NCBI GenBank assembly: GCA_903936705.1
Contig: CAIZWN010000068.1
Coordinates: 1-64,000 of the forward strand
Direction of reading: 5' to 3'
DNA: 64,000 nt
DNA from: an uncultured Myxococcales bacterium
GTDB lineage: Bacteria; Myxococcota_A; UBA9042; DTJE01
Each line of letters opens with the position of its first letter. The stretch's first letter is position 1. Below, one piece after another: positions 11,303 through 21,766 of the stretch. The notes below the pieces were generated by a model. That model had not been told where the DNA came from and searched no databases. It saw only the letters and a list, made by a program, of their open reading frames with translations. A program made the position numbers and the translations under genes.

Positions 11303-12262
11303 TCAGACCTCGATTTCCTGATAGTCGGCACAGGCGAAAACGTGGTCGGCAAGTTCGGGAGCGCCGTTGGCAATCAACCAGGAACGGGCCTCGTCGACAA
11401 TCGAGTTGACGATTGAATCATCGGACATCGGATCGTGATGGGTAAGCCCCAGGCGACCGACATTGCACTCCTTCATAACCCTCGCAGCGTATTCCCCTGT
11501 GGCGTGCCCGAATCCGGATGTGGTCGTCTGGTACTGCGCGCGTGTGTATTGAGCATCCTGGATCAGCAGGTTTGCTCCGTCGATGTGCATTCTGAGATCC
11601 TTGGGCAGGTTGACGGTGTTCTCGTGATCGGTCAGTACCACCGCCACCTTGCCTGACGTGCGCTCCTCGAAGCGATAGGACACTGTGTATTCTGGATGCA
11701 CGGTCTTGTGCATGTGAACCACGAGGCTCTCGTCCTGAAGGACCTGCTCGGCTGACGGAATGCGGGCAGTTTGCGTCAGGATCTGCTCGTACTCGTCGAC
11801 TCGAAGCAGGCGGGCACCCCGCTGCGGGTGGACCATCAGCAGATGGCGGCCAATGGCCTCAAGATCGTGGCAGTTGAAATGGCTGGCCACCCGCGAAAAA
11901 TCCACAGGAAAGAAAGGTGCGGACATCAGAGTCCGCAGCATCTCCATGGGGCCGATTCCATGTTCATGCGGGCCGTACATATCGATCGGCACGGACTTTT
12001 CAAAGGTGTGTCTTGCCAGCGGAAGCCCTTGGGTATGGTCATGGTGATAGTGGGTCATCAGCAGAACCAGGTGCTGAACCCCTTCATTGAACAGGTCTAA
12101 GGACGCCGGGACAAGACCGGTTCCAGCGTCGATCACAAGTGCCGAGTCCCTTGGAAGGCAGTTCGACATGATTCGGATGCAGGTGGTGTTGCCGCCGTAA
12201 CATCTTGTTTCAGCTCGGGATACCGGTGTGGAGCCGCGCGTACCGTAGGTCTTCAACCTCAT
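11303..12262 (-). CDS. MBL-fold metallo-hydrolase
   Basis: A 319-residue metallo-beta-lactamase-fold protein. THYHHDHTQG (about residues 90-99) supplies the H-x-H-x-D-H metal motif; further metal candidates are LTDHEN near 200 and LTHHDP near 277. The N-terminus (KTYGTRGSTP, YGGNTTCIRI, LVIDAGTG) is that of the RNase Z / PhnP-like subgroup, whose members hydrolyse phosphodiesters of RNA or cyclic nucleotides. There is no signal peptide, so it should be cytoplasmic. It is divergent from the DUF6901-like gene. A role in second-messenger or nucleic-acid hydrolysis is inferred only. Confidence 0.85.
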   Translation of the reverse strand: MRLKTYGTRGSTPVSRAETRCYGGNTTCIRIMSNCLPRDSALVIDAGTGLVPASLDLFNEGVQHLVLLMTHYHHDHTQGLPLARHTFEKSVPIDMYGPHEHGIGPMEMLRTLMSAPFFPVDFSRVASHFNCHDLEAIGRHLLMVHPQRGARLLRVDEYEQILTQTARIPSAEQVLQDESLVVHMHKTVHPEYTVSYRFEERTSGKVAVVLTDHENTVNLPKDLRMHIDGANLLIQDAQYTRAQYQTTTSGFGHATGEYAARVMKECNVGRLGLTHHDPMSDDSIVNSIVDEARSWLIANGAPELADHVFACADYQEIEV

Positions 12263-12390: not shown

Positions 12391-12515
12391 TCTTGGAAGG
12401 TTTAGTCTGTCGGATTATTGATGAATATTCGGTTGAACAGTGTTGATGATATGCGTGGTAGAATGCTGTCGCAGGCGATTGCAGAATGTGAAATTGTGGC
12501 CTACTGGGGGTGGGA

Positions 12516-13268
12516 ATGAGCCGACGTGCAGTAGCTTCCGTTTCAAAAGATCAACCGGACAGCGAATCGGGTCAGGTAGTTTTCGACTACCGCCTCAAGT
12601 TCGATGACGCCAGCCAGTGGGAATTCCTGATTCGGCTGGACCCTGGAACGCTGGCAATAATTTTGCCCGAGTCCGTGGACCTGCCAGACTGGGCCGCCCT
12701 GGATTTCCACCGCTGCCCGAATTGTTCGCTGGATTCGTCGAAGCATGCGCATTGCCCGGTTGCCGTCTCGATGGTCGAGCTTGTTGATTGCTTCAAGGAT
12801 TGTGTTTCGCATGATGCCGTTGAAGTCACGGTTCGGACGGCCCAGCGCGGCTATTTCATGCGGACCAGCGTGCAGAATGCCTTGTCGTCCATCACCGGTA
12901 TCTACATGACCACGGCAGGGTGCCCAATTATGGACAGGTTGCGACCGATGGTGGAAACGCACCTGCCGTTTGCGACCCAGGAAGAAACGACCTACCGGAC
13001 GGTCTCGATGTACCTGTTTGCGCAGTTCGCTCTCGAGAGACACCAGAAGGATGCCGACTGGGGTATGTCGCGGCTGATGGAATTTCTGCGCGAGGTAGGC
13101 AAGGTCAATGTGGCGTTTTGCGAACGTTTGAAAGCCATTCCACACAATGGCGATGCGCACGTCAACGCGCTGACTATCCTCGATAGCCTGGCATCGCTCA
13201 CAAGCATCAGAATAGAGGGTGGTCAACTGGAGCACTGGGAATCATTGCTGTTGCGGCAGTGGGGTTGA
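12516..13268 (+). CDS. DUF6901-like protein
   Basis: A soluble protein of 250 residues without signal peptide. The pattern (FDYRLKFDD at the N-terminus, L-x-W-x-x-L-x-F-x-x-C-x-x-C near residue 65, a third Cys in HCPVAVSM, then SSITGIYMTTAGCP, RPMVETHLPFAT-EET, VSMYLFAQF and a VNALTILDSLA helix) resembles a family I recall as DUF6901; the accession needs checking. The paired Cys suggest a small metal site. GTG at 12510 is in frame, but ATG at 12516 has a G-rich ribosome site at better spacing. It is monocistronic and convergent with the O-methyltransferase gene. Function unknown. Confidence 0.7.
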   Translation: MSRRAVASVSKDQPDSESGQVVFDYRLKFDDASQWEFLIRLDPGTLAIILPESVDLPDWAALDFHRCPNCSLDSSKHAHCPVAVSMVELVDCFKDCVSHDAVEVTVRTAQRGYFMRTSVQNALSSITGIYMTTAGCPIMDRLRPMVETHLPFATQEETTYRTVSMYLFAQFALERHQKDADWGMSRLMEFLREVGKVNVAFCERLKAIPHNGDAHVNALTILDSLASLTSIRIEGGQLEHWESLLLRQWG

Positions 13269-13303: not shown

Positions 13304-14350
13304 TCATGCCGGTCGTTTCGCCGCCTGGATGACAGATCCGGCGCCCCGACGCATCCTCAGCGCCTTGTATGGTTTCAGTCCTGCCGTTTGCTGCCAGTGT
13401 GCCATTTCCTCGATCGACCAGGCCCCCGACACGCTGGTCAAGCTGAAATACAGGTCCATCAGGGCAGGGGTCTGGCCGGTGGCGCGTTCCGACGTTGGGC
13501 GGGTGAAGTCTATTATTGCGAACACTCCACCCGGTTTCAGCGAGCGGGCAACTCGTACAGTGAGGGACGTGCACTGGTCCGACGTCAGGTTGTGCACGAT
13601 GTTGGATGCGACTACGAGATCCCAGCATGCGTCGCCGAAGTCGTCAGTGCGGGCATCCCCGGCGCGGTGAACCACGCGATCGCCAAGGTTCTCGCTGGCC
13701 AGCAACGGCGCAGATGCCTGGATGGCCTCGGGCAACTCCAGGACGACTGCTTTCATGGCTGGATGGCGCCGGCAGAAGGTGGCCGACAGGTGTCCGTGGG
13801 CTCCGCCGATGTCGAGCATCGTGGTGGCGCCCTGGGGGACTGGCGTCCGGGCCGCGATCTCGGGAGAACCCAAATTGGCAAGGCAGCGCATTGCCCGCTG
13901 GTACAACTGCCATGCGTCATCGTCAAGTGCGCCGCGACCCAGAATACTGGCTCCGGTGCGTACGTGATCGTCGAGTCGCGAAATCCATTCCCATTCGTAG
14001 TGGCGCCACAGGACATAGTCGCGGACCGAGTCGGGGCTGTCCTTCAGCAGCCATCGCCGGGCTACTGGAAGCAACTCGAACGTGTCCCCCTTTCGACGCA
14101 CGTATCGCAGTGAAACCAGCACGTCCAGCAGGCGTTCGGTTGGCACGGGTGAGGTGCCGGCGCGACTTGCCACATCGATAGCCGAAAGGGGGCCTTCTGC
14201 CAGCGTGTCAAGAATTTCCAATCGGCAGGCTGCCACCAGCGATCGGACCATCAGCAGCCCGTTGAAAGTCTCGATGACCGGGTTGGGGACCTCGCCGGCA
14301 ATCAAGCCCATAAGCTCGTAGGCAGTCTCGGGAATCAGTCCGACTCGCAT
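13304..14350 (-). CDS. O-methyltransferase (plant/hydroxyindole type)
   Basis: SAM-dependent O-methyltransferase of 348 residues. The N-terminal helical dimerisation domain reads as a winged helix (LEILDTLAEGPLSAIDVASRAGTSP, LLDVLVSLRYVRRKGD). The Rossmann domain has motif I LDIGGAHGHLSA near residue 173, an acidic residue after the second strand (VLELPEAI), and the catalytic-type region SNIVHNLTSDQC with a His near 258. The family methylates phenolic or enolic hydroxyls in polyketides and aromatic metabolites. It is the last gene of the biosynthetic operon, 57 bp after the radical SAM gene. Probable job: O-methylation of the operon's product. Confidence 0.85.
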   Translation of the reverse strand: MRVGLIPETAYELMGLIAGEVPNPVIETFNGLLMVRSLVAACRLEILDTLAEGPLSAIDVASRAGTSPVPTERLLDVLVSLRYVRRKGDTFELLPVARRWLLKDSPDSVRDYVLWRHYEWEWISRLDDHVRTGASILGRGALDDDAWQLYQRAMRCLANLGSPEIAARTPVPQGATTMLDIGGAHGHLSATFCRRHPAMKAVVLELPEAIQASAPLLASENLGDRVVHRAGDARTDDFGDACWDLVVASNIVHNLTSDQCTSLTVRVARSLKPGGVFAIIDFTRPTSERATGQTPALMDLYFSLTSVSGAWSIEEMAHWQQTAGLKPYKALRMRRGAGSVIQAAKRPA

Positions 14351-14407
14351 CAGTTGTTGCCCTCCGGCGGGGAGATTCCTGGTGGTTCCCAGTCGCAGCG
14401 CCGCGGG

Positions 14408-15655
14408 TCAACCCGGCTTGACCCAGCCGCGGACGGTGCCGTCTGGCATTGTCGTCGTGCCTTCTGCCCGTTCGCGCATGACGACATTCCTGAACAGACG
14501 AGCCATCTTCGTCTGGCGCCCGTCGGCTCCGTAGAATTTCTCCCAGGCCAGGTAATACAGATCCTGGAGTTCAGTCGGAGTCATATGGCGCGGTTGAAAC
14601 ACCACCTTGCCGGTTGTGTAGTCGATCCAGTTGTTGTGCAGGACGCGCCCCTCGGCCTCCACCTGTTCGCGGTACGGGGTGTGCAGGAACGGCGTCATCA
14701 CCGTGAATTCAGCCATGTCCAGGTCCATCTCGATGCAGAAATCGATCAGGCGCAGGACGTCATCCTTCGTCTGGTCGTCCGTGCCAAGAATGATGGTGCC
14801 TTCGACACCTATGCCGTGATCCTTGTACATCTGGATGCGTCGGCGGATTCCCTCGTTCACATCCGTTATGGCCTGGTAGACGTACCAGGCGCCCGCATCG
14901 TATGCCGCCGACAGGACCTCGTCATCGCCCTCGATCGGGTGCGCAATGAACTTGCGCTTCAATGGCTTCAGGGCGCGGAACAGTTCAAGTTCCCATTTCT
15001 TGTCCTGGGCCAGCGAGTTGTCGACAAAGAAAAGTCGTCCGTTATCGATTCCCGCAACCTCCTCGACCACGGCCTCGATGGGCCGCGGACGGAAGCAGCG
15101 GCCTCCCAGGTACGCGACGCTGCACGGCGGGCAATTGAAGCGGCAGCCGCGGGAGGCATGCACCAGGTCCACCATGCGTACGCCCCGGTAGGTGTACAGC
15201 CCGTAATCCAGGATGTCCCTGCGGGCCGGGCGCACCGACTCGATAGGGGGCAATTGCCCCATGCGGTTATAGACCTTCTTCAGTGATTTCTTCCTCAGGT
15301 CGGCCAGCATCTCGTCGAAGTGGCCTTCGACCTCGCCCAGGAAGACCGAATCGCAGGCTTGCGCCATTTCTTCGCTGTGGATTGCGACTGCGATTCCACC
15401 GGCAATTACCGGGATGCCGCGGGCCCTGTATATCGCCGCAATCTCACGAGCCCTTGGCGTCTGGCAGGTGAGCATGACGGACAGGGCGACCACGTCCGGC
15501 TTGTCCTCCAGGTCCAGTTCCTGGCGGTGCTCGTCATGGAACGTGATGTTGACGTCACGCGGCACGTTGGCCGCAAAGTTGATGGGGCCGTGCGGGGGCA
15601 GGTGAAATTCGGTCTGTTCGGGCAGTTTGGGCCACTTCGGGTAGATCAGCTTCAT
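14408..15655 (-). CDS. B12-binding-domain radical SAM enzyme
   Basis: A 415-residue radical SAM protein. The N-terminal 130 residues (VVALSVMLTCQTPRA, GIPVIAGGIAV, DSVFLGEVEGHFDE) look like the cobalamin-binding fold of class B radical SAM enzymes, although no clean D-x-H-x-x-G is visible. The [4Fe-4S] motif C-x3-C-x2-C is in SRGCRFNCPPCS. Downstream segments (FFVDNSL, GTIILGTDDQT, FTVMTPFLHTPY) match the HpnJ/BchE-like group. The reaction could be methylation of an unreactive carbon, cyclisation or oxidation; not deducible. The start ATG overlaps the stop of the degenerate ketosynthase (ATGA), so the genes are translationally coupled; an in-frame ATG at 15661 is the alternative. Confidence 0.87.
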   Translation of the reverse strand: MKLIYPKWPKLPEQTEFHLPPHGPINFAANVPRDVNITFHDEHRQELDLEDKPDVVALSVMLTCQTPRAREIAAIYRARGIPVIAGGIAVAIHSEEMAQACDSVFLGEVEGHFDEMLADLRKKSLKKVYNRMGQLPPIESVRPARRDILDYGLYTYRGVRMVDLVHASRGCRFNCPPCSVAYLGGRCFRPRPIEAVVEEVAGIDNGRLFFVDNSLAQDKKWELELFRALKPLKRKFIAHPIEGDDEVLSAAYDAGAWYVYQAITDVNEGIRRRIQMYKDHGIGVEGTIILGTDDQTKDDVLRLIDFCIEMDLDMAEFTVMTPFLHTPYREQVEAEGRVLHNNWIDYTTGKVVFQPRHMTPTELQDLYYLAWEKFYGADGRQTKMARLFRNVVMRERAEGTTTMPDGTVRGWVKPG

Positions 15656-16632
15656 CCACATGCAGGTTGCTCCATGACATAGGCGGGGTTTCGCCTGAAC
15701 AGTACGGCGGCGACGCCTAGCCGGCAGAGGGTGACGTGCAGGTACAGACCCGGCAGCGCGCCCGGGCCATAGACTTCGGCAATTGCCAAGGCAGAAGCGG
15801 TCTCGAACACGCCGCATCGGTCGAGGTAGGGTGTCACCTTGGCACCAGGGATGCGACTGGCAAGCAGGGCCGAGGCGATCGCGTCAACGCGAAGACCTGG
15901 GAAGATCGTTACTGGCTCGCCGGCGCAGCGCAGTCTGGCGACGTTTGCTGCAATCACGTCAAAGGCTGCGCCAGGACCATGGCCTCCACGGGATTCGCCA
16001 GCAAGCAGGATTGTCTCGAGGATTTCTCCAGACGTTTCGTGTTCGTCCCGACCTACCAGAAGCCAGCCGGAACCTTCGCCCAGTACCGTGTTGCCAGGCA
16101 TACCGATACGCAGCACGAGTCCTTCGCGGTCAGGCAGGTACTCGTCCACACCTCCCACAAGGGCACGGTCTACCTCACCGGTCCGCAGAGCCAGGTCGGC
16201 CATCATCAGGGCGCCCTCGAACGAGGTTTCCTCCTGTGACACGACCATGTTCGGCCCGCGTGCCCCAGTGACCCGCGCGGCATAGAAAGTTGCAGAATTG
16301 CTGACCGAATTTGCGAAGTGCACCGGGGATGCCGGACCCTGCGCGAGGCCGGACGTCAAGCCGATCACCTGTTCTGCCACCAGGCCTTCCTCGGCCCCGT
16401 TTCCGATGCCTGACCCAAGGTATATTCCTGTTCTACTTCCCGGAATGCCATCCGGGGACATCGAGACGCACGCCGAGGCGCCTATCAGGGCCAGCCGAGC
16501 ATGCCGCCCAACCCGGCGCGGGCGCTGGGGTACGAAGCGTTCCTCGAGCGGGGCAAGATCCTGGGCGCAGAAATCAGCTCCGGGTGATGCGGGGGCGGTG
16601 GGCCACAGTGACCAGGCGGCAAGCACCTTCAC
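15652..16632 (-). CDS. Degenerate ketosynthase homologue (chain-length-factor-like)
   Basis: A 326-residue protein with a beta-ketoacyl synthase fold that is shorter than the usual 400. Segments RTGIYLGSGIGNG, VHFANSVSNSATFYAA, GEVDRALVGGVDEY and VLGEGSGWLLVG match the thiolase fold, but where active synthases have the nucleophile Cys (ACTS or ACSS) this protein reads SQEETSF, with Glu at about residue 135. No HGTGT motif is seen. It should not condense acyl chains alone. In type II polyketide systems a KS pairs with such an inactive partner (chain length factor); the direct overlap with the active KS gene (GTGA, GTG start) supports a heterodimer. Membership of the true CLF family is not established. 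Confidence 0.75.
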   Translation of the reverse strand: MKVLAAWSLWPTAPASPGADFCAQDLAPLEERFVPQRPRRVGRHARLALIGASACVSMSPDGIPGSRTGIYLGSGIGNGAEEGLVAEQVIGLTSGLAQGPASPVHFANSVSNSATFYAARVTGARGPNMVVSQEETSFEGALMMADLALRTGEVDRALVGGVDEYLPDREGLVLRIGMPGNTVLGEGSGWLLVGRDEHETSGEILETILLAGESRGGHGPGAAFDVIAANVARLRCAGEPVTIFPGLRVDAIASALLASRIPGAKVTPYLDRCGVFETASALAIAEVYGPGALPGLYLHVTLCRLGVAAVLFRRNPAYVMEQPACG

Positions 16633-17822
16633 GCGACGACCTCCCCGCGAGGCACCTTGGCCAGCAAAGACACGCTGTTCCCGCCAAAACCGAAGTAGTT
16701 CAACATTACTATTCCCCCAACGAACGGGGCGTGGTTGCGCAGCGGCGTGACGCCGACCTCCGGGTCAACCTCGGCAAAGCCCGCGCAGGCAGGCACGAAT
16801 CCGGCCTCGAGACATCCGACAAAGGCCCCCAGCTCAACGGTGCCTGCCGCGCCCATCGTGTGGCCCAGATACCGCTTGATCGAAGCGAACGGGGGAATCC
16901 GATCGCCGAACAGGCGCAGCAGTGCGTGGCCCTCGGCCGAGTCGTTGTCCGGTGTGCCAGTGCCGTGCGCCTTGATCGCCACGATTGCAGAGGGTTCGAC
17001 CCCTGATTGCTCGCAGGCGGCTCGCATCACGGCTTCAGCCCCGCTTCCATCCGGCGACGAGGCGGTCATGTGGAACGGGTCGCATCGGCTGGCCCCGCCC
17101 AGCAGCAACACATCGCGACAACCGGTCCGGGAATCGTCGTCTGCCAGTTCCAGTATCAGAGCGGCCGCGGCCTCACCAACCTGTATGCCCTTGCGTGCCC
17201 TGTCAAACGGCAGGCAGCCGTCTGGGGTCAGCAGCATCAGGGCGTCGAACCCGTGCAGCAGCGTGGCCGTAAGAATGTCCGTTCCAACAACGATGGCGCG
17301 GGGCACCAGGCCCTGGCGCAGCATGTGGATGGCGGTCAAAATTGCATTTGCCGACGAGGTGCAGGCAGAGCAAGTCGTAAGGACCGGACCAGCGACACCC
17401 AGCTCCTCGGCCAACCGTACGGCAACGCGTCCGGCCGGTGGCTCGATTGTCACGTTGGGCACCAGGCCCTGGTGCGCAAGCTGCCCGCGGTAACGGGTCT
17501 CGGATACGTTCGAATCGCCGGTGATGGATCCCACCAGCAGGGCTGCTGCTGCAACCTGTGGGCTGCGGGGCTGAAGGCCAGCCTCGGCCAGCGCCTGTCG
17601 CAGCGCTTCGAGGGCCAGTTCGTCGTTGCGTGGCCGTTCGGGATCAACGTCCATATCGCGGACCTGGGATACTGGCACGCGATCTTTCAGCGGAGTGATG
17701 ATGCCAGCCACCGGATGAAGGCCGATTTCGCCGGCGAGAATTCGCGTTGCAACTGCCGCCCGCCCTGAACCCAGCGAGCTGACGAGGCCGATGCCGGCGA
17801 TGCGGACTGGGGCCGGAATCAT
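16629..17822 (-). CDS. Beta-ketoacyl-ACP synthase (KAS II/FabF-like), active
   Basis: Condensing enzyme that extends an ACP-bound acyl chain with malonyl-ACP. The 397-residue length is normal. The catalytic triad is complete: Cys near 154 in SACTSSANA, His near 286 in AHGTGTPDND and His near 321 in KRYLGHTMGAAG; the C-terminal FGFGGNSVS loop is present. It starts at ATG 17822, overlapping the stop of the acyl carrier protein, and its stop overlaps the GTG of the degenerate ketosynthase, so ACP, KS and KS-like protein should be made in fixed ratio. It is clearly part of the operon's own chain-building machinery and is not the housekeeping FabF, because its neighbours are export and tailoring genes. 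Confidence 0.92.
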   Translation of the reverse strand: MIPAPVRIAGIGLVSSLGSGRAAVATRILAGEIGLHPVAGIITPLKDRVPVSQVRDMDVDPERPRNDELALEALRQALAEAGLQPRSPQVAAAALLVGSITGDSNVSETRYRGQLAHQGLVPNVTIEPPAGRVAVRLAEELGVAGPVLTTCSACTSSANAILTAIHMLRQGLVPRAIVVGTDILTATLLHGFDALMLLTPDGCLPFDRARKGIQVGEAAAALILELADDDSRTGCRDVLLLGGASRCDPFHMTASSPDGSGAEAVMRAACEQSGVEPSAIVAIKAHGTGTPDNDSAEGHALLRLFGDRIPPFASIKRYLGHTMGAAGTVELGAFVGCLEAGFVPACAGFAEVDPEVGVTPLRNHAPFVGGIVMLNYFGFGGNSVSLLAKVPRGEVVA

Positions 17823-18085
17823 GCGCGCGCACCCTCACTGCGGATGAAGTCCGCCAGGATACGTACCGACTGGAGCACCCGAATACTGGTGTTCTGGTTG
17901 TCGATGCGAACCCCGTATTGCCTCTGGACCGCGGTCACGATCTCGAGGGCGTCCAGGCTGTCCAGACCAAGTGGGGACTCGGGCCCCACCAGCGGACTGT
18001 CATCGGTCAGCGTCGCCATGCGGGCGTCGTCCAGGTCGCAGGACTTCTGGATCAACACTCGCAGTTCCTTTTCCAGGTCCTCCAA
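17819..18085 (-). CDS. Acyl carrier protein
   Basis: An 88-residue acidic helical protein carrying the growing acyl chain on a phosphopantetheine arm. The attachment site is Ser near residue 43 in LGLDSLDALEI, the standard DSL motif. It should be modified by a PPTase encoded elsewhere. The start is TTG with GGAGG six bases upstream. It is the first gene after the ABC permease (65 bp gap) and overlaps the ketosynthase start by 4 bp (ATGA). Context makes it the dedicated carrier for this operon and the likely donor for the BtrH-like acyltransferase. Confidence 0.92.
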   Translation of the reverse strand: MEDLEKELRVLIQKSCDLDDARMATLTDDSPLVGPESPLGLDSLDALEIVTAVQRQYGVRIDNQNTSIRVLQSVRILADFIRSEGARA

Positions 18086-18154
18086 TTGGTACCTCCGTCG
18101 TCGGCCTTTCGACCACCCATTATCCGCCTGGTCCGAACGATCCGTGCTGCGAAT

Positions 18155-19489
18155 TCAACCTTGTCGGCGCTGGAACGTCAACGCCGTAAGCATCCCGGCC
18201 GCAGCGAAGGCCAACAGCCGCATTACATCGCCTGCCACGGATGCAAGGTCCCCACCGCGCAGGAACAGGGTCAGGAACGCCTCCTGAGCCCATCCAAGCG
18301 GCGAGATCACGGCCATCTCCCTCATCGCCTGGGGCATTGAAAACCTGGGCATCATGACGCCGCCGATTGCGCCCAGGATCACGATGGTTGTGGAACCGAA
18401 GATGGACGCCTGTTCCGGGGTCCCGGCGATCGCGCCCACCGCCAAACCGAAGCCCATTGCCGCTGCCGCAGTCGCCAGGCCGACGACAATGGCGGCTGGG
18501 AGTTGCGCCCCAGGCGAAAATGCCGGAGTGCCCAGCAGCGGCAGGACGAAAGCTCCTATGGCGATCATCAGCACGAATTGCGCCGCGCAAACTATCAGGT
18601 ACAGAAGTGCCTTGCCCAGCAGCGCGGCCGATGGCGCACCAGGGATGATGTGAAGCCTGGCCTGGGTACCGTCCCGTCGCTCGCGGATCAGCGCGCCCGC
18701 CAGTGGGATCACGATCAGGAACATCGAGAAGATGGTCCAGGCCGGAACGTTCTGCTGGACCGAATCGGGGATGTCCGTCCATGCCTTGTCGGACGACGGC
18801 GCTGCGTCCAGCGCCAGCAGTGTTCCAGGTCCTGCGGCCATCGGCGCGGCAGCCAGGCCTCTGGTCACAGCGTCCGGAAGCGCGGCTCCCAGGCGTTGCG
18901 AGGCCCTGCGCGCCATTTCGAAAGTGAAGGCTTCGACCAGCAGGCGGATCTCGGCACCCTGAAGGACGCCAGCCGAAACGTTACGGATCAGCTTCACGTA
19001 GGGTGCCGTCAGGACGGGGTCCAGCCAAACCGACAATCTGGACGCCGGCCCGGCCTGCATCGCTGTCGGGGGACCTGCCGCCGGGTCTGACAAAAGGCGT
19101 TCCGCCAGATGCTGTGCATTTTCGCGTGCGGCGGCGCTGGTACCATCCCGCAGAACCAGGACGCCCTGGAATCGGCCATGACTTACTGCCTCCCGTGCCG
19201 ACTCCTCGGTGGCCGGGATGCCGTCCAGCAAACTCGTTACCGTGAACACGCCCGCGGATTCCAGACCGGCGCGCAGGGTTGGCCCAAGGTCACCGCCGTC
19301 CTGATCGACGATGATCAGGTCGGCATTAGGTGCCGCCACGAAACGCATCGCGCGTTCCTGGACAACAGTCACCACCAGGACCAGCGCCGTAGGCATCCCG
19401 AACAGCACCAGCAGACCGCCGCGGTCCCTGGCCAGGGTTCGTGCTTCCTTCACGACGCTGGCGGCGATCTGTCGCAAAAACCTAGTCAC
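18155..19489 (-). CDS. ABC-2 type permease
   Basis: Membrane half of an exporter. After a first TM segment (GLLVLFGMPTALVLVVTVV) comes a large extracytoplasmic region of about 230 residues, then five hydrophobic segments (FSMFLIVIPLAGAL, LLYLIVCAAQFVLMIAIGAFVLPLL, AIVVGLATAAAAMGFGLAVGA, IFGSTTIVILGAIGGVMMP, and a C-terminal one), the layout of ABC2_membrane_3/YhgE-like or LPS/lipid-type exporters. GTG at 19489 is chosen: it overlaps the ATPase stop by 8 bp and has AGGGA upstream; an upstream in-frame start at 19528 lies inside the ATPase. Together with the ATPase it probably exports the operon's product. Confidence 0.87.
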   Translation of the reverse strand: MTRFLRQIAASVVKEARTLARDRGGLLVLFGMPTALVLVVTVVQERAMRFVAAPNADLIIVDQDGGDLGPTLRAGLESAGVFTVTSLLDGIPATEESAREAVSHGRFQGVLVLRDGTSAAARENAQHLAERLLSDPAAGPPTAMQAGPASRLSVWLDPVLTAPYVKLIRNVSAGVLQGAEIRLLVEAFTFEMARRASQRLGAALPDAVTRGLAAAPMAAGPGTLLALDAAPSSDKAWTDIPDSVQQNVPAWTIFSMFLIVIPLAGALIRERRDGTQARLHIIPGAPSAALLGKALLYLIVCAAQFVLMIAIGAFVLPLLGTPAFSPGAQLPAAIVVGLATAAAAMGFGLAVGAIAGTPEQASIFGSTTIVILGAIGGVMMPRFSMPQAMREMAVISPLGWAQEAFLTLFLRGGDLASVAGDVMRLLAFAAAGMLTALTFQRRQG

Positions 19490-20225
19490 GAAGTTCCCTG
19501 CCTGTGAGGTGAAGGAACACGCCTTCAAGATTCGAGCATCCCGGGGTCTGCTGGATCAATGCTACGGGTGCCCCTTCCGACAGGACGCGGCCGCCGTCGA
19601 TGATGGCAACTCGTCCGCACAGGCGCTCGGCTTCCTCCAGGTAGTGCGTCGTATAGATCATCGTGACCCCGGCCTGCGACAGGCTCTGGAGGGTAGTCAG
19701 GATGGCCGCGCGGCTTTGCGCATCGACGCCTACCGTGGGTTCGTCCAGGAAAAGGAGTGTCGGCCCGTGAATCAGCCCGGCCGCAAGGTTTGCCCGCCTT
19801 TTCATGCCCCCCGACAAGGTTTCAACTGGACGGTCCGCCGTCTCGGACAGCGCCACGCGATCCAGACACTCGCCGATCCGCCGCTTCAGTTCGCCACCCG
19901 CCAACCCGTACAGACGGCCAAAGTATTCCAGGTTCTGGCGAACGGAAAGTGTCGGGTACAGAGCAATGTCCTGTGGCACCAGGCCGATGCGGCGCCGAAC
20001 TTCGCCGCCGGCCGCTCGCAGGTCCCGATCGAACACGGAAACGCTGCCAGAGGTCGGCGTTCGCAGTCCTGTGAATATCGAGATGGCCGTGGTTTTTCCA
20101 GCGCCGTTCGGCCCCAGCAGCCCGAAGAACTCCCCTTCCTCGACGGCAAGATCCAGGCCAGTCAAGGCCGGCTGGCTGGCGCCGGGGTAGGTTTTTCGCA
20201 GTTCATGTGATCGCAGTGCGATCAA
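19482..20225 (-). CDS. ABC transporter ATP-binding protein
   Basis: Nucleotide-binding subunit of 247 residues. Walker A is GPNGAGKTT near residue 39, the Q loop VPQDIALYP near 86, the signature LSGGMKRR near 135, Walker B LLFLDEPT near 154 and the H loop YTTHYLEEAE near 190. The sequence is closest in style to DrrA/CcmA-type exporters of drugs, antibiotics or lipids. The start is TTG at 20225 with GAGG upstream. Paired with the overlapping permease gene; it lies 86 bp after the BtrH-like gene on the same strand. Confidence 0.92.
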   Translation of the reverse strand: MIALRSHELRKTYPGASQPALTGLDLAVEEGEFFGLLGPNGAGKTTAISIFTGLRTPTSGSVSVFDRDLRAAGGEVRRRIGLVPQDIALYPTLSVRQNLEYFGRLYGLAGGELKRRIGECLDRVALSETADRPVETLSGGMKRRANLAAGLIHGPTLLFLDEPTVGVDAQSRAAILTTLQSLSQAGVTMIYTTHYLEEAERLCGRVAIIDGGRVLSEGAPVALIQQTPGCSNLEGVFLHLTGRELRD

Positions 20226-20311
20226 TCAATCCACCTCATGCCAGCGAAGAAGAACCATTCCGGGTGACAACATTCGGCTGTAAGGCCGTTGCTCGAACCA
20301 TGTCGTCTAGC

Positions 20312-21319
20312 CTACCGCACCTGGGCCCGGACGTCCTTGAAGATTGCCTCTTCGCGATCCGCACACTCCCGAAGGATGGCGGCGAGGCGGGGATAAGGGT
20401 CCTCGGCGTGGTCGCGTCCTTTGCACGTCCGTGACGCCAGAAGGGCAAAGTCGCGCCAGCGGTCGCCGACCTCGGTCATTCGTCGCGCCGCGTCCGCCAG
20501 TCCCTCGATGCCCAGGATGCGGGCTGCATCGGCCAGGAAAGCGCCGTACATGAAACGGAATCCTGCGCCGCCCGTGCCGATCTCTTCCAGCAGCAGCACC
20601 AGATGGCCCGCGTTCATAGCCGCCATCTCCGGAGTCAGTTTGTTGGGCCAGCGCTCGACGGTAAGGGCAAGTCGTCGCATGCCTTTTACACCCAGCAGCG
20701 GGAAAGGGATCTTCAGCATGTTGAACGCCGTTTCCTTGATGCCCTTCATGACGGGGACGCGCAGATCGACGTCTTTTGGTACAAGGGTGGGGTAGTACAT
20801 CCGACCCTTCGGCGCCATCTCGCCCCGGCTGAAACGGGCGCGCAGCAGGTCCTTGCGCAAGCAGCGAACCGGCTCTGCCAGGACCGGGTCGCTCATGTGG
20901 TACTCGTCGCCGTCACGACCGAACACGATGACGTTGTGTGCGTTGAAATGAAACCGGAAGGCGCCGGGCAGGTACGGCAGCCAGAATACTCCCGTCTGCA
21001 CAGCCACCGGAATCCCCTGGTCCAGCGCTCGGTCCAGGTCGTCCATAGCGCGCTGGGGGTCCTTGTACGTGACGTCGTGGAACCGTACTCCCAGGCGTTT
21101 CGCGTTCTTCCGGATGATCGATCCCGGCGGACCGCGGAACGACACAAGCGGGAACTTCTGGTCGGTCACCTTGATGAAAGGGAAGTACGCGAAAAACAGG
21201 CCCGAGCCGATTCCGAAGACCTGAGGTTCCGTGACGTTGAGCCCTTGGTGGCGCAGCAGGCTGGCGATTGTAGCTGTTTCGCAGTGCGCGCCCTGGAGGT
21301 GGGTGAATGGGATCTGCAT
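20312..21319 (-). CDS. BtrH-like acyltransferase (BtrH N-terminal domain plus DUF4872)
   Basis: A 335-residue protein resembling butirosin protein H, which moves an acyl group from an acyl carrier protein to an amine of an aminoglycoside. The N-terminal domain begins with HCETATIASLLRHQG, giving a probable nucleophile Cys near residue 13 followed by the family helix; a conserved-type His is in FNAHNVIVFG near 128. The C-terminal half (GIKETAFNMLK, a run of helices to residue 330) fits DUF4872. GAGGA precedes the ATG. Because the operon has its own ACP, the likely job is release of the ACP-bound chain onto an amine acceptor. The acceptor is unknown. Confidence 0.85.
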   Translation of the reverse strand: MQIPFTHLQGAHCETATIASLLRHQGLNVTEPQVFGIGSGLFFAYFPFIKVTDQKFPLVSFRGPPGSIIRKNAKRLGVRFHDVTYKDPQRAMDDLDRALDQGIPVAVQTGVFWLPYLPGAFRFHFNAHNVIVFGRDGDEYHMSDPVLAEPVRCLRKDLLRARFSRGEMAPKGRMYYPTLVPKDVDLRVPVMKGIKETAFNMLKIPFPLLGVKGMRRLALTVERWPNKLTPEMAAMNAGHLVLLLEEIGTGGAGFRFMYGAFLADAARILGIEGLADAARRMTEVGDRWRDFALLASRTCKGRDHAEDPYPRLAAILRECADREEAIFKDVRAQVR

Positions 21320-21325
21320 GCGTCC

Positions 21326-21766
21326 TCAGCCGCCGGTCCCTTGGGATGGCGGATCGACGGGCGGCGGCGAGTCGGGGAGGGACTTCAGTTCCTCGACCGT
21401 CAGGCGCAGTGCCCAGGCATACTTTTGCAATAGTGCTGGCGGCAGTTTCTGGAATACCTCGGGCCGCAGATGCCTGCGCACGCGCCAGGTCCAGATCCCG
21501 ACATACTCGGCCAACATGCCCGGTTCCAGCAGGTTGGCTGCCATGTGATAGAAAAGAGGGCTCTTTCGGCCTGCGCGCACTTCCTGCCATGCGTCGGCCG
21601 CGTTCCGCCGAATTATCGCCCAGGCCTGCCGGTGGACGTGGACGCTTTCGGTGAACCCGTCGTCGCGCACCTGCTGGACCTGACCGTCCTTGCGAGGCTG
21701 GTAGGTCACTACGTCGCTCCAGCGCTCGGGCGTATCGACCTGCGAAACCCGGTTTTCGGCGGCCAT
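21326..21766 (-). CDS. Uncharacterised protein, first gene of the biosynthetic operon
   Basis: A 146-residue, mostly helical and basic protein without signal peptide, Cys or recognised motif. A central stretch (SPLFYHMAANLLEPGMLAE, then WTWRVRRHLRPEVFQKL) and the C-terminal LLQKYAWALRLTVEEL are the most distinctive parts; the C-terminal helices resemble the end of a small DNA-binding or adaptor protein, but I cannot assign a family. ATG at 21766 is preferred over 21814 because the predicted promoter would start transcription near 21820, only six bases from the upper start. The BtrH-like gene begins 6 bp after its stop, so the two are tightly coupled. Partner, chaperone or regulator of the pathway are all possible. 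Confidence 0.6.
   Translation of the reverse strand: MAAENRVSQVDTPERWSDVVTYQPRKDGQVQQVRDDGFTESVHVHRQAWAIIRRNAADAWQEVRAGRKSPLFYHMAANLLEPGMLAEYVGIWTWRVRRHLRPEVFQKLPPALLQKYAWALRLTVEELKSLPDSPPPVDPPSQGTGG

Follow-up and report, generated by a model that had tools for sequence, protein, structure and literature searches.

The nine tightly packed ORFs that run on the minus strand from position 21766 to 13304 of the window (the whole 64,000-nucleotide stretch of contig CAIZWN010000068.1 that was analyzed, from an uncultured Myxococcales bacterium) form a real and conserved operon. It is probably an accessory block derived from dialkylresorcinol (dar) clusters that lacks the resorcinol enzymes, with a different lipid or polyene conjugate being made and exported. 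The helper genes and their order are known from dar clusters, which belong to a bacterial pigment pathway; the operon departs from these clusters in that the resorcinol enzymes are missing and in that it includes an O-methyltransferase and a radical SAM enzyme of the B12 type.

ORF and Pfam analyses agreed with the nine genes, their positions, and their domains as listed in an earlier note on this DNA.

21326..21766, minus strand: DarG-family protein (darD of Azoarcus), 146 aa; NF053536 DarG_fam, 113.5 bits, cut-off 70
20312..21319, minus strand: DarH, BtrH-related acyltransferase (darE of Azoarcus), 335 aa; NF053550, 417 bits, cut-off 300
19482..20225, minus strand: ABC transporter ATPase (darF-like); PF00005, with a DrrA-type match of 247 bits that is below cut-off
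18155..19489, minus strand: ABC-2 type permease (darI-like); PF12698
17819..18085, minus strand: acyl carrier protein (ACP, darC-like); PF00550, phosphopantetheine Ser43 in GLDSLD
16629..17822, minus strand: ketosynthase (KS, darJ-like); Pfam, Cys154/His286/Lys316/His321
15652..16632, minus strand: chain-length-factor-like (KS-like) protein (darK position); Glu135 for the active-site Cys, C-terminal KS half degenerate
14408..15661, minus strand: B12-binding-type radical SAM enzyme, rSAM1; CxxxCxxC at C173/C177/C180
13304..14350, minus strand: O-methyltransferase, Methyltransf_2 plus dimerization domain; Pfam, in three of six species

The Pfam domains of genes 2–6 are BtrH_N with DUF4872, ABC_tran, ABC2_membrane_3, PP-binding, and both the N- and C-terminal ketoacyl-synt domains, and those of genes 7–9 are a degenerate ketoacyl-synt N domain only, B12-binding, and Methyltransf_2. 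The intergenic distances are +6 bases (DarG/DarH), +86 (DarH/ATPase), −8 (ATPase/permease), +69 (permease/ACP), −4 (ACP/KS), −4 (KS/KS-like), and +57 (rSAM1/O-methyltransferase). Three of the overlaps that had been claimed (ACP/KS, KS/KS-like, and ATPase/permease) were recovered as such; the fourth, 4 bases between the KS-like gene and rSAM1, is obtained only from the internal ATG of MWMK and is 10 bases from the first ATG. Across the GC-rich loci analyzed, some ORF boundaries are uncertain. The proposal that the genes lie behind one promoter found no support, as a sigma-70 consensus scan returned one weak site, not upstream of the operon, versus 1.9 expected by chance. The promoter and terminator scan was at chance level, and Rfam and tRNA scans gave no match.

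The earlier note did not recognize this gene set as a described pathway, a claim that the comparison with dar clusters partly overturns. Genes 1 and 2 score above the NCBIfam cut-offs for the DarG family and DarH, names that correspond to Azoarcus darD and darE and do not follow the Azoarcus letters. In Azoarcus sp. BH72, the dar cluster is part of arcuflavin biosynthesis, and its order is darA, darB, darD, darE (BtrH-like), darF (ABC ATPase), a toxin-antitoxin-like pair, darI (permease), darC (ACP), darJ (KS), and darK (PMC3949708). By domain-level comparison, seven of the nine window genes keep the darD-E-F-I-C-J-K order. The equation of darK with the KS-like gene rests on position, because darK is annotated as “hypothetical” in Azoarcus (PMC3949708). 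The two loci differ in that Azoarcus has darA, darB, and the internal toxin-antitoxin-like pair, whereas the genome that contains the window (G000) is without darA and darB and the window adds rSAM1 and the O-methyltransferase. In a phylogenetic tree, the KS of the operon clusters with KS sequences from the dar-type loci of three Myxococcota genomes, G087, G097, and G200 (SH-aLRT 99), and not with those encoded in the polyene cluster of G000.

Searches for the resorcinol enzymes, the aromatase DarA and the ketosynthase DarB (StlD/DarB type), separated the operon from a dar cluster proper. DarA had no match in G000 or in the five related genomes that carry the operon (G011, G036, G060, G191, and G176), and the same query gave strong matches in the positive controls G087 and G097. 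This query belongs to a Myxococcota family remote from that of G000, and a divergent DarA might escape it. The best genome-wide DarB match in G000 scored 103.5 bits versus a cut-off of 450, and in all six operon genomes, including one of 30 contigs, DarB matches were below cut-off and at the FabH level only. The canonical dar genes were recovered by the same searches in G087 and G097. Thus, of the features of a dar cluster, DarG- and DarH-type proteins, the accessory gene order, and a KS of the dar lineage are present, and DarA and DarB are missing. A plain dialkylresorcinol cluster was rejected on this genome-wide absence of both enzymes in six of six genomes. The earlier note had named a close match to a characterized cluster, dialkylresorcinol among them, as evidence against its reading; the Azoarcus cluster comes near to such a match, yet DarA and DarB are missing from the genome, and a different product is likely because of their absence. 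That this is nevertheless a dialkylresorcinol cluster whose DarA and DarB lie elsewhere or in an assembly gap is highly improbable: the block and its order are as in dar clusters and the genome is 96% complete, but the same two proteins are absent or at the FabH level in six species, the 30-contig genome included, and the control searches succeeded, so that this explanation is largely refuted.

A member of another Myxococcota family (G200; locus L066, contig C481) carries DarG-DarH-ACP-KS-KS-like together with a different ABC transporter, and no DarB was found in its genome.

The co-occurrence across genomes on which the earlier note had staked its reading was borne out. Genes 1–8 are collinear in G000 and five related Myxococcota species, on one contig each in G191, G011, and G036 and across contig ends in G060 and G176; together these species represent three genera. 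Of the family's 13 genomes, only six have a close relative of DarH, namely G000 and these five, and a seventh has a relative with 34% identity. When compared with the related species, the radical SAM enzyme is the most conserved product of the operon (83–91%) and the KS-like protein the least (41–66%). Every gene is under purifying selection (dN/dS 0.08–0.44 across all pairs measured), with the lowest values for the radical SAM gene. This selection, together with the recurrence of the order of genes 1–8 in relatives, indicates that the arrangement reflects more than chance. The terminal O-methyltransferase is variable, being present in G000, G011, and G036 and not found at this place in G191, G060, and G176.

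G000 is a draft genome of 4.85 Mb in 84 contigs, and the genomes closest to it in sequence are metagenome bins of Myxococcota. A DUF6901 gene downstream of the operon (12510–13268 of the window, plus strand) also adjoins it in G011 and G036, and it is followed by an RNase Z-like gene (a weak match; 11303–12262, minus strand) that is also near the operon in G011; the presence of these genes by the operon in relatives points to vertical inheritance of the region. One DarH scan of viral contigs found no relative, and a viral origin was rejected on this basis. Plasmid relatives were only BtrH-family proteins with about 30% identity or less.

The AlphaFold2 model of DarG (pLDDT 81) has a Cro/C1-type helix-turn-helix as its C-terminal half, and its Foldseek matches are mostly Cro/C1-type DNA-binding domains, with modest scores (best E 1.9e-3). 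DarG is probably a helix-turn-helix regulator or helper protein, judged from this model. Its regulatory role is a suggestion only, since similar domains occur in some enzymes, of which HEPD and HppE are in the same Foldseek list.

The DarH model (pLDDT 89) has AziU3, CtaG, and CcbD as its best Foldseek matches, and its predicted active site consists of Cys13, His128, and Asp144. Among 20 homologs, Cys13 and His128 are invariant and Asp144 is nearly so. The CtaG crystal entries that were matched include variants named C11A, H128A, and D144N. CcbD, which works by a cysteine ping-pong mechanism, turns an acyl group on a carrier protein into an amide and can also use fatty acyl groups (PMC12945683); CtaG is a proposed peptidyl transferase of closthioamide synthesis (PMC6772006). 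DarH therefore models as a CtaG/CcbD-like carrier-protein-dependent condensing enzyme, with the overall fold and the Cys/His/acid active site of CtaG, CcbD (celesticetin), and AziU3, although it shares just 10–20% sequence identity with them. CcbD differs from DarH in its third catalytic residue (Glu versus Asp), and CtaG and CcbD serve peptide-type pathways (HBA/β-alanine carriers and proline plus amino sugar, respectively) and are not beside a KS pair. Of the earlier proposal that an ACP-bound chain is modified, moved by a BtrH-type transfer, and exported, the parts are present in the operon; given the predicted fold and the Cys-His-Asp triad, transfer from a carrier protein to an acceptor is the best guess for DarH. 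The model supports acyl transfer and does not distinguish an amide from an ester product. BtrH_N proteins are related to C39 peptidases (PMC10318531), and 3erv, with its C39 peptidase relation, is also among the fold matches; however, the closest folds include the carrier-protein condensing enzyme CcbD, and the neighbors of DarH are an ACP and a KS, so a C39-like peptidase or hydrolase that is tied to the ABC transporter and performs no acyl transfer is very unlikely.

The pairing of a KS with a Cys-less KS that the earlier note had described was confirmed. The KS retains its active-site residues (Cys154, His286, Lys316, and His321), and its best PDB matches include 6qsp and 6kxd. In the adjoining KS-like protein, Glu135 replaces the Cys and both His motifs are missing. 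An active KS next to a partner that lacks the catalytic Cys is the arrangement of type II KS/chain-length-factor pairs, and from sequence we infer that the two proteins form such a pair, as a putative heterodimer. The ACP is 45–49% identical to the ACP that follows the permease in polyene-type clusters of anaerobes.

The assignment of the eighth gene to the class B type of radical SAM enzymes also held, as rSAM1 has a B12-binding domain (33.6 bits, cut-off 32.1) and an intact CxxxCxxC motif; its radical-SAM Pfam match is below cut-off. The reaction of rSAM1 is not readable from homology, since no NCBIfam model covers it above cut-off (TIGR04072, 50.9 bits versus 360) and its best PDB match is 6fd2, a radical SAM enzyme of apramycin biosynthesis. 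A profile search returned at least 540 relatives of rSAM1, of which the best 80 beyond the family are 54–61% identical to it, in Desulfuromonadales, Nitrospirota, Elusimicrobiota, Bacteroidota, and others. Many relatives sit in KS-rich polyene/ladderane-like clusters with further radical SAM genes, and several of these have ACP-KS-KS-like-DarG-DarH-ABC downstream. Clusters related to the rSAM1-bearing ones have been noted in Kuenenia, Desulfotalea, and Geobacter (Rattray et al. 2009; PMC2649909), and a literature search on aryl polyenes and radical SAM enzymes in Geobacter found nothing. In the rSAM1 tree, the six operon copies make up a single, fully supported clade on a long stem, to which the polyene-cluster copies of G060 and G191 do not belong. 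On short contigs of G106 and G133, from other families (loci L087 and L088), rSAM1 is followed directly by an ACP and a KS; a dehydratase-like gene is close to them, and DarH is not seen on these contigs.

Clusters in Desulfuromonadales and Nitrospirota (Desulfuromusa kysingii, L132 and L189; Geothermobacter, L190) resemble the operon in holding rSAM1, ACP, KS, KS-like, DarG, DarH, ABC ATPase, and permease together. They differ in having a full polyene core, extra radical SAM genes, and DarB, whereas the operon has the eight core genes and no DarB. In G000, a separate polyene cluster is located on another contig, C32 (L183 and L184), with MMPL, LolA, thioesterase, GT2 glycosyltransferase, several KS, a FabD-type acyltransferase, and a ladderane-type radical SAM enzyme (TIGR04072, 375.8 bits, cut-off 360), and comparable KS-rich polyene-type loci are present in all six operon genomes. 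The earlier note was correct that no acyltransferase, ketoreductase, dehydratase, thioesterase, or PPTase is encoded within the operon (Pfam), but beyond it C32 holds the FabD-type acyltransferase and relatives of thioesterase and dehydratase genes. Aryl polyene markers (ammonia-lyase or chorismatase, AMP ligase, ketoreductase, dehydratase, and LolA/MMPL exporter) are all missing from the operon and several are on C32; the aromatic/histidine ammonia-lyase of G000 is on C78, not beside the polyene cluster. An ordinary aryl polyene cluster was rejected for the operon since these markers are missing, although such a cluster is present elsewhere in the genome, and an ordinary ladderane cluster was rejected since rSAM1 falls far short of the TIGR04072 cut-off that the C32 gene passes.

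These data bear on where the chain comes from. The operon could be a satellite of the C32 cluster, a more specific form of the explanation that we favor below, in which the operon ACP would receive the C32 polyene for an rSAM1 step, conjugation by DarH, and export by the ABC transporter. The contents of C32 and the polyene-type loci in all six genomes fit such a division of labor, as do the anaerobes, where rSAM1 is inside the polyene cluster and adjoins the DarG-DarH-ABC block. The operon rSAM1 is the only close copy in G000, G011, and G036, and the polyene-cluster stretches read in these genomes have none. In Azoarcus, too, the arc and dar loci lie at separate places, and a single hybrid product is ascribed to both (PMC3949708). 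However, the operon has its own KS pair, and G060 and G191 carry a polyene-cluster rSAM1 (53–54% identical to that of the window, in separate clades) in addition to the operon rSAM1, so that the operon enzyme may have its own substrate. We regard the satellite arrangement as possible but doubtful. It is rather unlikely that the operon is a stand-alone pathway, as the earlier note had proposed, in which its KS pair would build a short fatty or poly-β-keto chain independently of C32: an ACP and a KS pair, the KS with an intact active site, are encoded within the operon, and rSAM-ACP-KS units occur on the short contigs of G106 and G133, but acyltransferase, ketoreductase, and dehydratase are lacking.

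The explanation that we favor, with some confidence, is that the operon is a dar-type accessory block whose part in resorcinol formation has been lost or never existed and that conjugates and exports another chain. From their residues and family, the KS and the Cys-less KS-like protein would work together as ketosynthase and chain-length factor on a chain that the operon ACP carries; the starter, malonyl transfer, and any reduction or dehydration would come from fatty acid synthesis or the C32 polyene cluster. rSAM1 may then alter this chain on its carrier, either through C-methylation or through some other radical reaction. As its predicted fold and its residues suggest, DarH would accept the acyl group of the ACP on Cys13 and, assisted by His128 and Asp144, pass it to an amine or perhaps to a hydroxyl. 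The ABC-2 transporter, judged by its family, would export the conjugate, and in three of six species the O-methyltransferase may cap a hydroxyl.

The gene content, the kept order, the absence of DarA and DarB, and the intact catalytic residues that this explanation draws on were all observed. In addition, an ACP and a KS immediately adjoin rSAM1 in G106 and G133, which belong to other families, and a DarG-DarH-ACP-KS-KS-like-ABC block in a genome without DarB is also seen in G200, a member of a different Myxococcota family. Against it stand the draft state of the genome (96% complete, in 84 contigs), the distant DarA query, which a diverged DarA could escape, the lack of an evident acceptor-making gene in the operon, and the Glu of CcbD where DarH has Asp; DarH could also hydrolyze the chain off or form an ester rather than an amide. 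More broadly, and tentatively, DarG-DarH-ABC-ACP-KS/KS-like may be, in place of a resorcinol accessory set, a general module that removes an acyl or polyene chain from an ACP, attaches it to an amine or hydroxyl acceptor, and exports the conjugate; some lineages would have combined it with DarA/DarB, and the present one with an O-methyltransferase and a B12 radical SAM enzyme. If this broader reading is true, it implies an undescribed class of conjugated lipids in Myxococcota.

In the literature on dar clusters, we found neither a tested role for the accessory genes beside DarA/DarB nor experimental work on what DarD, DarE, or DarK do. Because lineages keep the block under selection without the resorcinol enzymes, the block has a use of its own, and the operon provides a small eight-gene system for probing the roles of DarG, DarH, the KS pair, and rSAM1. 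Through rSAM1, the operon also connects a widespread family of B12 radical SAM enzymes, one without a curated name, with the modification of ACP-bound chains.

DarB was well above cut-off in eight of eight tested anaerobe genomes with rSAM1 and DarG/DarH, and DarA was not found in these eight genomes with the distant query. A B12-type radical SAM enzyme beside DarB may replace DarA in the absence of oxygen. In the anaerobe clusters, DarB is located beside a further B12-type radical SAM gene (L189:8454-10902, L190:6569-9018, L192:6891-9334, and L147:18995-21237), and the two of these radical SAM proteins that were scanned are HpnR-like, below cut-off.
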